DNA of 64,000 nucleotides, taken from assembly GCA_900696525.1 (NCBI GenBank), contig CAADGL010000012.1:124001-188000 (forward strand). Reading direction: 5' to 3'. Under the pieces are notes generated by a model. The model did not search any database, was not told where the DNA came from, and worked only from the letters and a program-made list of their open reading frames with translations. The stretch comes from an uncultured Planctomycetota bacterium (GTDB lineage: Bacteria > Planctomycetota > Phycisphaerae > UBA1845 > Fen-1342). Positions 33,911-38,118 of the stretch are shown here, piece by piece (the first letter of the stretch is position 1; every line of letters begins with the position of its first letter). Both the position numbers and the translations under genes were made by a program.

Positions 33911-35968
33911 GTGGTGTTGGCGAACAACGTCGGCGAGGCTCGCAGCGTTCCACCGCTTCAGGCGGAAACGCCCCGGCTGCGCATCGGGGCGCCCTCGTAC
34001 AACCCTGATTTCTTTGCCGAGACGGCCGAGCTCGTGACGCTGATCGGGAGCCGGCGCGACTGCCACCTGCCGGTGCCGCTCACCGACATCTCGAAGATCC
34101 ACTGCGCCATCTGCAACACGGGGCGCGACCTGCTGATCTGCGACCTGCGCAGCCGGACCGGCACCTTCGTCAATGAGCAGCAGACGCTCGCGACCGCGCT
34201 GAGCCCCGGCGATACGGTCCGCATCGCCAACGTGCCGATCGAGCTCGAGTTCGTGCGCCCGCCCGCGCCCGCGGCCTCCCCCGAGGCCGCCATGCGCCTC
34301 TCCCGCGCGCTGCGCATCGCCCTGCCCGGCCGCACCCTGACGCTCGAGACCCAGCCCATCGTCATCGGCAAACGCAGCAACTGCGACATCGTCGTGGATA
34401 CGCCCGACGTCTCCCTCGCTCATGCGCTGGTCTTCGCCGTCTGCGGCTGCCCGGTGATCTACGACCTGGGCAGCCGGTCCGGCACGCTGCTCAACGGAAA
34501 ACGCGTCACGCTGGCCTGGCTCAAGGATGGCGACCACCTCGGTATCGGCGGCGAATCCCTCGTCGTCGGTTGGGACGGTCCGACCTTCGAGCCGCCGCCC
34601 GTCGCGGCGGCCGTCGCAGTGCCCTCCCCGGCGGCGGCTTTTGACCTGGGCGGCGCGATACCCGAGATGCCGGCGTCGGCGGTCGGGCCGAGCGCGCTTG
34701 AGAACATGATCGCCTCGTTGCAGGGCCAACTCGCCGCGTTCCGGACCCGGCTGGAGAAACGCGCGGTCGAGCTGGATCAGCGCTCGGCGCAGGTCGACGC
34801 GCTGATGGCTGAGCTGACCCAGCAGCGCATGGGCCTCGAGGCCATGCGCACCCAGGTCGCAGCCCGGGCCGATCGCCTTGAGCACGACCGCCGGCAAATG
34901 CTGCGGCGGCGGTCGAAGCTGCGCAAGGCGCTGATCGCCTACCGCGAGCACAAGGAGCGGCTTGACCGCCAGCAGGCGGACCTGGCCGCCGCGCTGCATG
35001 AGCTGGAGCAGGAGCGGCAGCGCATCCTGGGGATCGAGCAGGACGTGGCGGCGCGCGAGGGGCGGCTCGGCACGGCGCAGCAGGAGCTCTCGCGCCGGCT
35101 CGAAGCGTGCGACGCCCAGGCCCAGGCGCTCGAAGCCCAGGGCCGCGAGCTGGCCGAGCAGCAGCAGATGGCGCGCCTTCGCGAGCAGGCCCTCGCCGAA
35201 CAGGAGGCCGGCCTGGTTCAGCGCGAGCAGGACCTCGCCCAGCGCCAGACCGCCCTCACCGCGTCCGAACAGGCCCTGGCGCAGCGCGACCGCGACCTGT
35301 CCGCGCGCAGCGCCGACCTCCTGGCGCGCGAACAGGAGCTCAACGAGCACCAGGAGACGCTCGCGGCGATGGAATCCGACCTGCTCGCCCGGCGACAGGC
35401 CATCGCCACCGCCGAGGCCACACTGCGGCAGCGCGAAACCGCCGTCCTCGAGAGCGAGAAGCGCATTCTGCAACTGAAGACGGCGCTGGAGCGCGCGGCG
35501 CAGGCGTTCTCCGGCATGGGTCTCGACTTGCCCGTCTCGCCGGGAGCGCCCGCACCCCCCGCACGGCTCGACGCCGCCGCCCCTTCGGACGAGCCCGCCC
35601 GGCGCGGTCCGGGACCGTCGGCGTACGAATCGGCAACCGCCGCGGCGCCGGCGCCGCCGCCCGTTCACGCCGTGAACGTGTCGGAAGCGCGCGTCTCGCT
35701 GCCGGCGGCGAGCGCCCTGGCGGGGAACGGCGCTCTGGCCGGCGCCGCGGGGCTGCCGGCCCCCATCGTCGACCAGCCGTTGTTCGCCGGCCTTCCGGCG
35801 GTGCAGCAGCTACCGGCGGAGATGCAGGAGCGGCTGCGCGTGCTGCGGCGCGTCTCGGACAAGAGCGACGAGGAGCTCGTGGCGCAAGTCCTGGCAGAGA
35901 TGGATGCGAAGCGCGGCGAGCCCGCCGTCCCGCCGAAGCGGAAGAAGAAGCGCGGCTGGCTCTCATGA
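33911..35968 (+). CDS. Double-FHA-domain coiled-coil protein
   Basis: A 685-residue cytoplasmic scaffold. Two FHA (phosphothreonine-binding) domains occupy about residues 35-115 and 125-205. The first has IGSRRDCHLPVPLTDISKIHCAI and RSRTGTFVNE; the second has IGKRSNCDIVV and GSRSGTLLNGKRV. In the second, the conserved S..H is SLAH. A continuous coiled coil of about 265 residues, rich in Glu, Gln, Arg and Ala with heptad repeats, is followed by a Pro/Ala-rich linker. It ends in a basic tail, PKRKKKRGWLS, that may touch membrane or nucleic acid. The GTG start at 33911 is inferred. Such proteins read Ser/Thr kinase signals; no kinase is in the window. Confidence 0.88.
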   Translation: MVLANNVGEARSVPPLQAETPRLRIGAPSYNPDFFAETAELVTLIGSRRDCHLPVPLTDISKIHCAICNTGRDLLICDLRSRTGTFVNEQQTLATALSPGDTVRIANVPIELEFVRPPAPAASPEAAMRLSRALRIALPGRTLTLETQPIVIGKRSNCDIVVDTPDVSLAHALVFAVCGCPVIYDLGSRSGTLLNGKRVTLAWLKDGDHLGIGGESLVVGWDGPTFEPPPVAAAVAVPSPAAAFDLGGAIPEMPASAVGPSALENMIASLQGQLAAFRTRLEKRAVELDQRSAQVDALMAELTQQRMGLEAMRTQVAARADRLEHDRRQMLRRRSKLRKALIAYREHKERLDRQQADLAAALHELEQERQRILGIEQDVAAREGRLGTAQQELSRRLEACDAQAQALEAQGRELAEQQQMARLREQALAEQEAGLVQREQDLAQRQTALTASEQALAQRDRDLSARSADLLAREQELNEHQETLAAMESDLLARRQAIATAEATLRQRETAVLESEKRILQLKTALERAAQAFSGMGLDLPVSPGAPAPPARLDAAAPSDEPARRGPGPSAYESATAAAPAPPPVHAVNVSEARVSLPAASALAGNGALAGAAGLPAPIVDQPLFAGLPAVQQLPAEMQERLRVLRRVSDKSDEELVAQVLAEMDAKRGEPAVPPKRKKKRGWLS

Positions 35969-36124: not shown

Positions 36125-36153
36125 TTGACATGCGCGCGCGGTCCAACTAGAAT
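36125..36153 (+). promoter_or_regulatory. Near-consensus sigma-70 promoter
   Basis: TTGACA (36125-36130) and TAGAAT (36148-36153) are separated by exactly 17 bases, a perfect -35 and a five-of-six -10. It drives the receiver-like gene at 36211 and, through it, the diguanylate cyclase. A start near 36160 would leave a leader of about 50 bases. Confidence 0.85.
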
Positions 36154-36210: not shown

Positions 36211-36816
36211 GTGGCCGTTGACCGCCAGGCCGTTGTTGTCCGGACCGGTCAGCGCGAGCAGTCCGATCACATCTGCCGCGTCCTGCGCGACGCGGGCATC
36301 ACGCCGGTCGAGTGCCTCGATGCCCTCGAAGCCTGTCTGCACCTGCTGCGGAACCCGCAGCCCACGCCGGAGGCGGTCTTCATCGGCGTCGATTGGCTGA
36401 CGCGCGAGGATCACGTCCTGGTCGGCTACGTCCGCCAGACGTGGCCAAGCGTGCTCATCGTGCTGCACGGCGAGGGTGGTGACGCCGTTCCCGCTCCGGG
36501 CAGGCCGGCGATTCTCTGCCGCACGGCGGCCGAGTTGGGGCAGACGCTCGCGTCGGTCCCCGAGGGGCTGGCCGCGATCGGGCGCGAGCAGTTCGGCGGC
36601 GCGGCGCAGCGGCTGAGCGGGGGACACGCGCGGCGCGGACCAGCGATCGACGTGGCCGCGCCGGTCGAACGCGATCCGCCGGCGCGCGGGACGGCAGCGG
36701 CTGCGGCGGTGCAAGCCGTCGCGGCGGTCGAACCGCCCGGGCGGGGGCCCGAGCCACCACGAACGATCCTGACCCAAGAAGAGCTGGACGCCCTGCTGCG
36801 AGACAGTGGGGTCTGA
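36211..36816 (+). CDS. Receiver-like protein with FliM-type C-terminal peptide
   Basis: A 201-residue protein. Residues 1-125 have the alternating strand/helix pattern of a CheY-like receiver (QAVVVRTGQREQSDHICRVL, AVFIGVDWLTREDHVL, SVLIVLHGEGG). The acidic pair expected after the first strand is missing, so it is probably a pseudo-receiver. A low-complexity Ala/Pro/Arg linker (about 130-185) leads to ILTQEELDALLRDSGV at the very C-terminus. This closely resembles the CheY-binding N-terminal peptide of the flagellar switch protein FliM (xLSQxEIDALL). The GTG at 36211 is the start. The GGDEF gene begins 37 bases after its stop. Function is unknown; a CheY or phospho-receiver docking role is inferred. 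Confidence 0.6.
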   Translation: MAVDRQAVVVRTGQREQSDHICRVLRDAGITPVECLDALEACLHLLRNPQPTPEAVFIGVDWLTREDHVLVGYVRQTWPSVLIVLHGEGGDAVPAPGRPAILCRTAAELGQTLASVPEGLAAIGREQFGGAAQRLSGGHARRGPAIDVAAPVERDPPARGTAAAAAVQAVAAVEPPGRGPEPPRTILTQEELDALLRDSGV

Positions 36817-36852: not shown

Positions 36853-38118
36853 ATGTCCTGCCTGCTGGTGATTGGCCCGCGTGCGATCGGCCACGAGGTG
36901 CAAACCGCGCTGCCGGGTTGGGACGTCCTGCTCGCGGATCACGCCCTGGAGGGTCTCTGGCAGGCCGGCAAGGGCGACTTCGACGGCATCCTGCTCGCGC
37001 TGCCACCTAGCGAACGCACCACGCGCACCGTTCGCGGCATCCGGCAGGTAACCCCCTCCACCCGGCTGCTCTACGCCTGCCCTGCGGCCGTCGAGCCGCG
37101 GGCACGTGAGCTGCTCGCGATCGGCGTCGACGACTACCTGCTCACGCCGCTTCGCCGCGACGACCTGTGCCGCGCACTGGGCGTGGCGGTCAGCGCCCCG
37201 GCGGAGCTTCCGCTCCCGGTGAGCCCGACGCCCGAAGAGCTGCTGCGATTCAGCGAGATCCTGCGCGACCTGGGCGCGGGCCCGCGCAAGACGCTGGCGC
37301 GCCTGGCCGAGCTGCACCGCTCGGTCTTCTCCGCCTCGGGCGTCCGCATCCAGGTCGACGACCTGACCGTGGAGGTGGGCGAGTTGCCCACGATCGTGCT
37401 CGAGGAGCCGATCGTGCGCGGCGAGCGCGTGGTCGGGCGCATCTCGCTCGCTCCGCGCACGGCCGGCTCGTACGGCGCGTCCGCCGCCGCCTGGCTAACC
37501 AAGTACGCCGTCCTCGTCGACGCCGCCGTCCAGAGCGCCCGCGGCCAGCAGCACTGGCAGCAACTGGCCTGGACCGACGACCTCAGCGAACTGGGAAACC
37601 GCCGCTACTTCGAGCGGCGGCTGGCGGAGCTGATCGAGCGGGCCGCCGCCCAGCACGAGCGGTTGACGCTTTTCCTGTTCGATATCGACGATTTCAAGAC
37701 CTACAACGACAATTTCGGCCACGACACCGGCGACGCGCTGATTCGCGAAGTCGCCGAGCTGCTGTCGCGCGCTACGCGCTCGGGCGACGTCGTGGCGCGG
37801 TACGGCGGTGACGAGTTCGCCGTCCTGTTCTGGGACGCCGAGCCCCCGCGCGTCGCCGGCTCGCACCATCCGGAGGAGCCAACCGCCCTTGCGGAGCGCT
37901 TCCGGCGCACGATCAGTGAACACGCCTTCCGCTGCCTGGGTCCCGGCGCGCCGGGGCCGGTCACGGTCAGTGGGGGGCTGGCCTGTTACCCGTGGGACGG
38001 CAAGCGGCCCGAGCAATTGCTGAAGGCCGCCGACGACTCGCTGCTGGCCGCGAAACGCGCCGGCAAGAACCGCATCCAGATCGCCGGCGGAATGCAGAAT
38101 GGCGGTCCGGCCGCCTGA
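36853..38118 (+). CDS. Diguanylate cyclase (GGDEF) with N-terminal receiver-like domain
   Basis: A 421-residue enzyme that makes the second messenger cyclic di-GMP from two GTP. Residues 1-110 form a receiver-like domain (LLVIGPRAIGHEVQTAL...GVDDYLLTPLRRDDL) without clear acidic phosphoacceptor residues. A middle region includes an amphipathic helix and a beta segment. The GGDEF domain begins near residue 238 with LAWTDDLSELGNRRYFERRL. It carries metal Asp residues in LFLFDIDDFKTYND, the active GGDEF at about 318-322, and an intact inhibitory RxxD (R309-D312) five residues before it. Both catalysis and product inhibition are therefore expected. It is transcribed with the receiver-like gene. 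Confidence 0.92.
   Translation: MSCLLVIGPRAIGHEVQTALPGWDVLLADHALEGLWQAGKGDFDGILLALPPSERTTRTVRGIRQVTPSTRLLYACPAAVEPRARELLAIGVDDYLLTPLRRDDLCRALGVAVSAPAELPLPVSPTPEELLRFSEILRDLGAGPRKTLARLAELHRSVFSASGVRIQVDDLTVEVGELPTIVLEEPIVRGERVVGRISLAPRTAGSYGASAAAWLTKYAVLVDAAVQSARGQQHWQQLAWTDDLSELGNRRYFERRLAELIERAAAQHERLTLFLFDIDDFKTYNDNFGHDTGDALIREVAELLSRATRSGDVVARYGGDEFAVLFWDAEPPRVAGSHHPEEPTALAERFRRTISEHAFRCLGPGAPGPVTVSGGLACYPWDGKRPEQLLKAADDSLLAAKRAGKNRIQIAGGMQNGGPAA

Follow-up and report, generated by a model that had tools for sequence, protein, structure and literature searches.

The locus described here lies in a window of 64,000 nucleotides (the whole stretch of DNA that was analysed) from an uncultured Planctomycetota bacterium, and comprises two adjacent genes on the forward strand. 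The first of them (36211..36816, +) has a GTG start and encodes a protein of 201 aa ending in ILTQEELDALLRDSGV, for which we use the name PRcv and which is built of a pseudo-receiver, a linker and a tail helix. Pfam and NCBIfam searches with PRcv gave no match, and a protein search of the genome_contigs database with PRcv as the query revealed no relatives. The second gene (36853..38118, +) encodes a receiver-like/middle-domain/GGDEF protein, as seen from its Pfam GGDEF match (E 9e-41), its orthologues and the structural model. A sigma-70-type promoter of this two-gene unit, TTGACA-N17-TAGAAT, was located at 36125..36153 (+) and agrees with the consensus in 11 of 12 positions (0.1 such sites are expected from shuffles); in family orthologues possessing a near-consensus promoter, the site mostly lies approx. 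64–94 nt upstream. The preliminary description of this DNA had listed a near-consensus promoter, a receiver-like protein devoid of the acidic pair, a flexible Ala/Pro/Arg linker and an adjoining diguanylate cyclase with a receiver-like domain of its own, and all of these elements were recovered in our analysis.

Residues 1–132 of PRcv (36211..36606, +) were predicted by AlphaFold2, in a model built on 23 orthologues, to adopt a receiver fold with pLDDT mostly of about 90. Structural comparison gave VIA Z values of up to 14.2 to a CheY-like receiver and a Foldseek probability of 1.0 to receivers; helix alpha-4 is unformed in the window copy. The full set of residues of a phosphorylatable receiver (acidic pair, phospho-Asp, Thr/Ser and Lys) is not found in PRcv, the acidic pair being absent. 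Asp61, within FIGVDW, is positioned at or next to the phospho-acceptor site and is the putative counterpart of CheY Asp57. The designation ‘pseudo-receiver’ is therefore right, yet the loss of active-site positions is incomplete, as D61 is retained in 35 of 44 homologues. The receiver domain is followed by an Ala/Pro/Arg-rich linker (residues 133–185; 36607..36765, +), which is predicted to be disordered from the low pLDDT over most of its length, and neither the length nor the sequence of which is conserved in the alignment of homologues.

The most conserved segment of PRcv is its tail. The C-terminal helix ILTQEELDALLR (residues 186–197; 36766..36801, +) was delineated from the homologue alignment and a motif profile, and in the AlphaFold2 model of PRcv alone helicity is predicted at residues 189–200 with pLDDT of 76–85. 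Among 44 divergent homologues, the mean relative entropy was 2.38 bits for the tail vs 1.43 for the receiver and 1.21 for the linker. Glu6 and Leu10 of the motif, the consensus of which is [L/I]L[T/S]xEELxALL, are invariant in these 44 aligned sequences, with the mean column identity of the alignment being 18%. As far as sequence comparison goes, the conservation of the tail is far beyond chance. The FliM-like peptide noticed earlier at this C-terminus is thus real and is retained by most homologues, since the motif occurs within the last 60 residues of 57 out of 61 complete ones. The four without a proper motif all come from the window's own family: two lack it (L037 and L039) and two have degenerate ends (L043 and L054). 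One further homologue (L176:2764-3849, −) ends in what appear to be two tandem tail motifs (LLTPEELQALM...SLTMDETDALLSDEE).

The motif is also nearly private to this gene. Application of the motif profile to 50 genomes resulted in 52 matches at E<=0.05, 47 of which were the PRcv gene, one per genome; elsewhere in the own genome, the pattern was found only in internal segments of two other proteins, which we take to be MutL-like and RarA-like. The possibility that the motif is a general amphipathic tail of unrelated proteins was accordingly rejected. The same profile against PDB sequences retrieved chance helices only, and neither FliM nor CheZ, so homology cannot be claimed on the basis of so short a motif alone.

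Within the same family, 23 of the 26 relatives sampled had a match to PRcv (E<=0.01). A family profile of PRcv had matches in 65 of 397 genomes and a class-level profile in 216 of 397, many of the latter being weak. The homologues are spread over many families of the window's bacterial class. No homologues with the motif were found elsewhere in the phylum, where most matches lay in the receiver part; none of the 29 out-of-class loci read had the motif. As the preliminary description had suggested checking, the pairing with a GGDEF gene holds at almost all loci read. Wherever the contig of a family locus extends far enough, PRcv is directly followed by the GGDEF gene on the same strand, mostly with a gap of 35–62 nt. 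At the class level, a receiver-like/middle-domain/GGDEF gene comes next after PRcv in nearly all loci, the exceptions being L167 and L199, with no clear partner, and L203, which is cut by a contig end. The two genes often overlap by 4 nt there, which suggests translational coupling. Other neighbours in the window (an FHA protein, a T2SS/pilus-type ATPase, and pdxH-like and rhomboid-like proteins; those without a Pfam or NCBIfam match are named as what we take them to be from their sequences) are not constant beside the pair in relatives, and the conserved unit therefore consists of two genes. In the FHA protein, encoded upstream at 33911-35968 (+), two FHA matches precede a long region resembling a coiled coil; the gene is not conserved at this position.

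The partner cyclase begins with a pseudo-receiver (36853..37182, +), in which the acidic pair and the phospho-Asp are absent and the beta-5 Lys is replaced. Response_reg matched this N-terminal domain in 15 of 21 orthologues, and a receiver fold is seen there in the model. Across the orthologues, the acidic pair, phospho-Asp, Thr/Ser and Lys positions are all unconserved; the alpha4-beta5 segment EPxAR...GxDDYxxxP is strongly conserved (E81 and P99 in 52/52, G91 and Y95 in 51/52). A scan with the cyclase N-terminus as the query returned a single archaeal match, which was irrelevant. The pseudo-receiver is followed by a middle alpha/beta domain (37231..37569, +) ending in a long helix and GAF-like by its predicted layout, with Pfam GAF_2 matching in only 1 of 21 orthologues, and by the GGDEF domain (37567..38073, +), in which, according to Pfam and the alignment, the GGDEF signature is intact and an inhibitory RxxD site (RSGD) is present. 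The active site of the partner is usually intact across loci, but it should be noted that the GGDEF signature is missing or altered in the partners of L165, L168, L172 and L178 (f18), L177 and L189 (f9), L187, L196 and L201 (f13), as well as L047 and L043. These lineages retain the gene pair and, except for L043, the tail motif; conversion of their partners from an enzyme into a receptor or scaffold is possible.

The preliminary description had raised the possibility that PRcv, through its FliM-like tail, serves as a receptor or decoy for phospho-CheY and couples chemotaxis to cyclic-di-GMP, and at first sight the resemblance to FliM is strong. As in the N-terminal peptide of FliM, the tail is a predicted N-capped amphipathic helix and a likely terminal peptide ligand, with L2, E6, I/L7, A9, L10 and L11 in common. 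The window tail, ILTQEELDALL, is in line with the consensus of FliM, LSQxEIDxLL (PMC5677366), apart from L in place of I in LTQEELDALL. A comparable CheY-binding peptide occurs at the C-terminus of CheZ, according to the statement in PMC3774744 that cites Guhaniyogi 2008. FliM is, furthermore, widespread in the class, occurring in the own genome and the majority of relatives. However, the PRcv motif is C-terminal and attached to a pseudo-receiver, and it is constrained differently. The FliM N-terminus within the same family reads V-L-D-Q-x-E-I-D-A-L-L, with Gln4 in 13 of 15 and Asp8 in 14 of 15 sequences, whereas in 51 PRcv tails position 3 is T/S instead of D, position 4 is variable and Asp8 occurs in only 5, so that the FliM consensus, with its Gln4 and the Ile-Asp pair at 7–8, is not followed across the set. 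In the FliM of Caulobacter, replacing the Ile-Asp pair abolishes the docking of CheY-like proteins (PMC5677366). The window copy is unusually FliM-like because Q4 and D8, absent in most homologues, happen to be present in it; its strong likeness is thus partly accidental, and the two motifs, to judge from these alignments, look alike but are differently constrained in related cells.

The distribution of chemotaxis genes also speaks against phospho-CheY as the ligand. In Pfam searches of 24 module-bearing genomes, all of them incomplete drafts, the own genome and a further 10 gave no CheW domain match. Six of these are more than 90% complete (the own genome, 93%; G041, 97%; G082, 98%; G068, 94%; G123, 92%; G140, 95%) and five are less so; G082, G068, G123 and G140 were without detectable FliM as well, and the tail motif is kept in all of them. 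Missing contigs might conceal these genes in a single case, but hardly in every one of these genomes. As PRcv is also kept where no chemotaxis machinery is detectable in the genome, the receptor of its tail is probably other than CheY, and we consider a receptor or decoy for phospho-CheY quite unlikely. The FliM of the own genome (G000:C12:262810-263385, L081) has a conserved CheY-binding-like N-terminus, VLDQREIDALL, in a genome with no detectable CheW domain, and G014, from the window's family, has two distinct FliM genes (G014:C29:1026-1604 and G014:C17:8292-8867).

Since it is the cyclase, and not chemotaxis, that constantly accompanies the tail, we favour, at about even odds, the interpretation that PRcv and the cyclase make up a dedicated cyclic-di-GMP module, with PRcv bearing a docking helix that is independent of chemotaxis. 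PRcv would be a dedicated partner controlling or positioning the cyclase, and its tail helix may act as a peptide ligand, in the manner of the FliM N-terminus or the CheZ C-terminus, for a protein outside chemotaxis. As both PRcv and the cyclase are without a complete phosphorylation site, the input to such a module is probably a binding event (of a partner, a ligand or a location) and not direct phosphotransfer. The likeliest receptor of the tail would be the cyclase itself, through its pseudo-receiver with the conserved alpha4-beta5 segment, and the next possible one a third, class-wide protein. The alpha4-beta5-alpha5 face of CheY binds the FliM and CheZ peptides (PMC3774744), and this, together with the conservation of alpha4-beta5, makes the cyclase receiver plausible in that role. 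However, the segment is intact, or nearly so, in the cyclases of the motif-less orthologues, hence the tail alone does not account for its conservation, which is in part a general receiver signature.

Modelling did not support docking of the tail on the cyclase. When the TGA between the two genes was read through as a modelling device, the tail pLDDT in the AlphaFold model of the resulting fusion, made with a shallow alignment, fell to 56–59, compared with 76–85 for PRcv alone. Another possible explanation, with which this difference and the missing helix alpha-4 of the window copy are consistent, is packing of the tail helix against PRcv's own receiver in cis, for autoinhibition or structural completion. 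We find this very unlikely, as class-level homologues keep the motif and yet seem, from their sequences, to have a normal alpha-4 segment, and the length of the linker varies widely.

Counting against control of the cyclase by PRcv is the fact that some lineages keep both module and motif despite a degenerate GGDEF in the partner. Such retention would fit binding of the tail to another receiver or a third conserved protein, e.g. from polarity, surface or envelope machinery, with PRcv serving to localise the cyclase as a scaffold similar to RomR, the polarity response regulator of Myxococcus. The architecture is shared indeed: RomR consists of a receiver, an unstructured Pro-rich linker and a conserved helical C-terminus that by itself suffices for targeting to the pole (PMC3441718), and the 36 receiver matches in the own genome may offer potential receptors. 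On the other hand, no candidate receptor was found, and the other neighbours in the window are not constant beside the pair. Furthermore, the C-terminal part of RomR is longer, Glu-rich and has invariant Trp and Pro (PMC3441718), in contrast to the PRcv tail, a 12-residue helix which by eye has no invariant Trp, and RomR is linked to MglA/MglB and not to an adjacent GGDEF gene. We regard such a scaffold as rather unlikely, and retain the dedicated cyclic-di-GMP module as the preferred reading.

Several other known systems bear comparison with this module. CheZ, like PRcv, has a folded portion and, at its extreme C-terminus, a helix. The likeness is one of layout; PRcv has a receiver fold and no CheZ domain or helical bundle, and it persists without detectable chemotaxis genes; the role of the CheZ peptide is taken from what PMC3774744 states of it. 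With PleD (receiver-receiver-GGDEF) the pair shares a total of two receiver-fold domains and a GGDEF domain, and PleD was the top full-length Foldseek match of the fused-pair model, by domain order only (TM 0.25). Unlike PleD, the pair is split over two proteins, both of its receivers are degenerate, and a middle domain and a docking helix are additional. The class-wide module might represent a PleD-like two-receiver cyclase split in two and joined or switched by a FliM/CheZ-like terminal peptide, which would dock on a pseudo-receiver without phosphorylation. This more specific and previously undescribed arrangement is possible, albeit doubtful. Should the tail dock on the cyclase pseudo-receiver, the receiver/peptide contact of chemotaxis would have been put to use in second-messenger control without involving phosphorylation. 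Whatever the case, the analysis brings to light a partner protein that lacks annotation and goes with one cyclase lineage throughout a bacterial class, and pinpoints 12 residues of it; no description of the PRcv/GGDEF pair was found in our literature library, which is itself partial.

By analogy, a cyclase with a proposed dedicated binding partner is reminiscent of SiaC–SiaD; to our knowledge, SiaC is not a receiver-linker-peptide protein. In that system, a diguanylate cyclase is bound and activated by a dedicated partner that belongs to its own signalling network (PMC8457831). The Cle proteins of Caulobacter, which are CheY-like and bind c-di-GMP, likewise carry an extension C-terminal to a CheY-like fold and belong to c-di-GMP signalling, but it is their receivers that bind the FliM peptide, whereas PRcv itself bears the FliM-like peptide. 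Pseudo-receivers can also bind c-di-GMP, as is the case for ShkA (PMC7010744).
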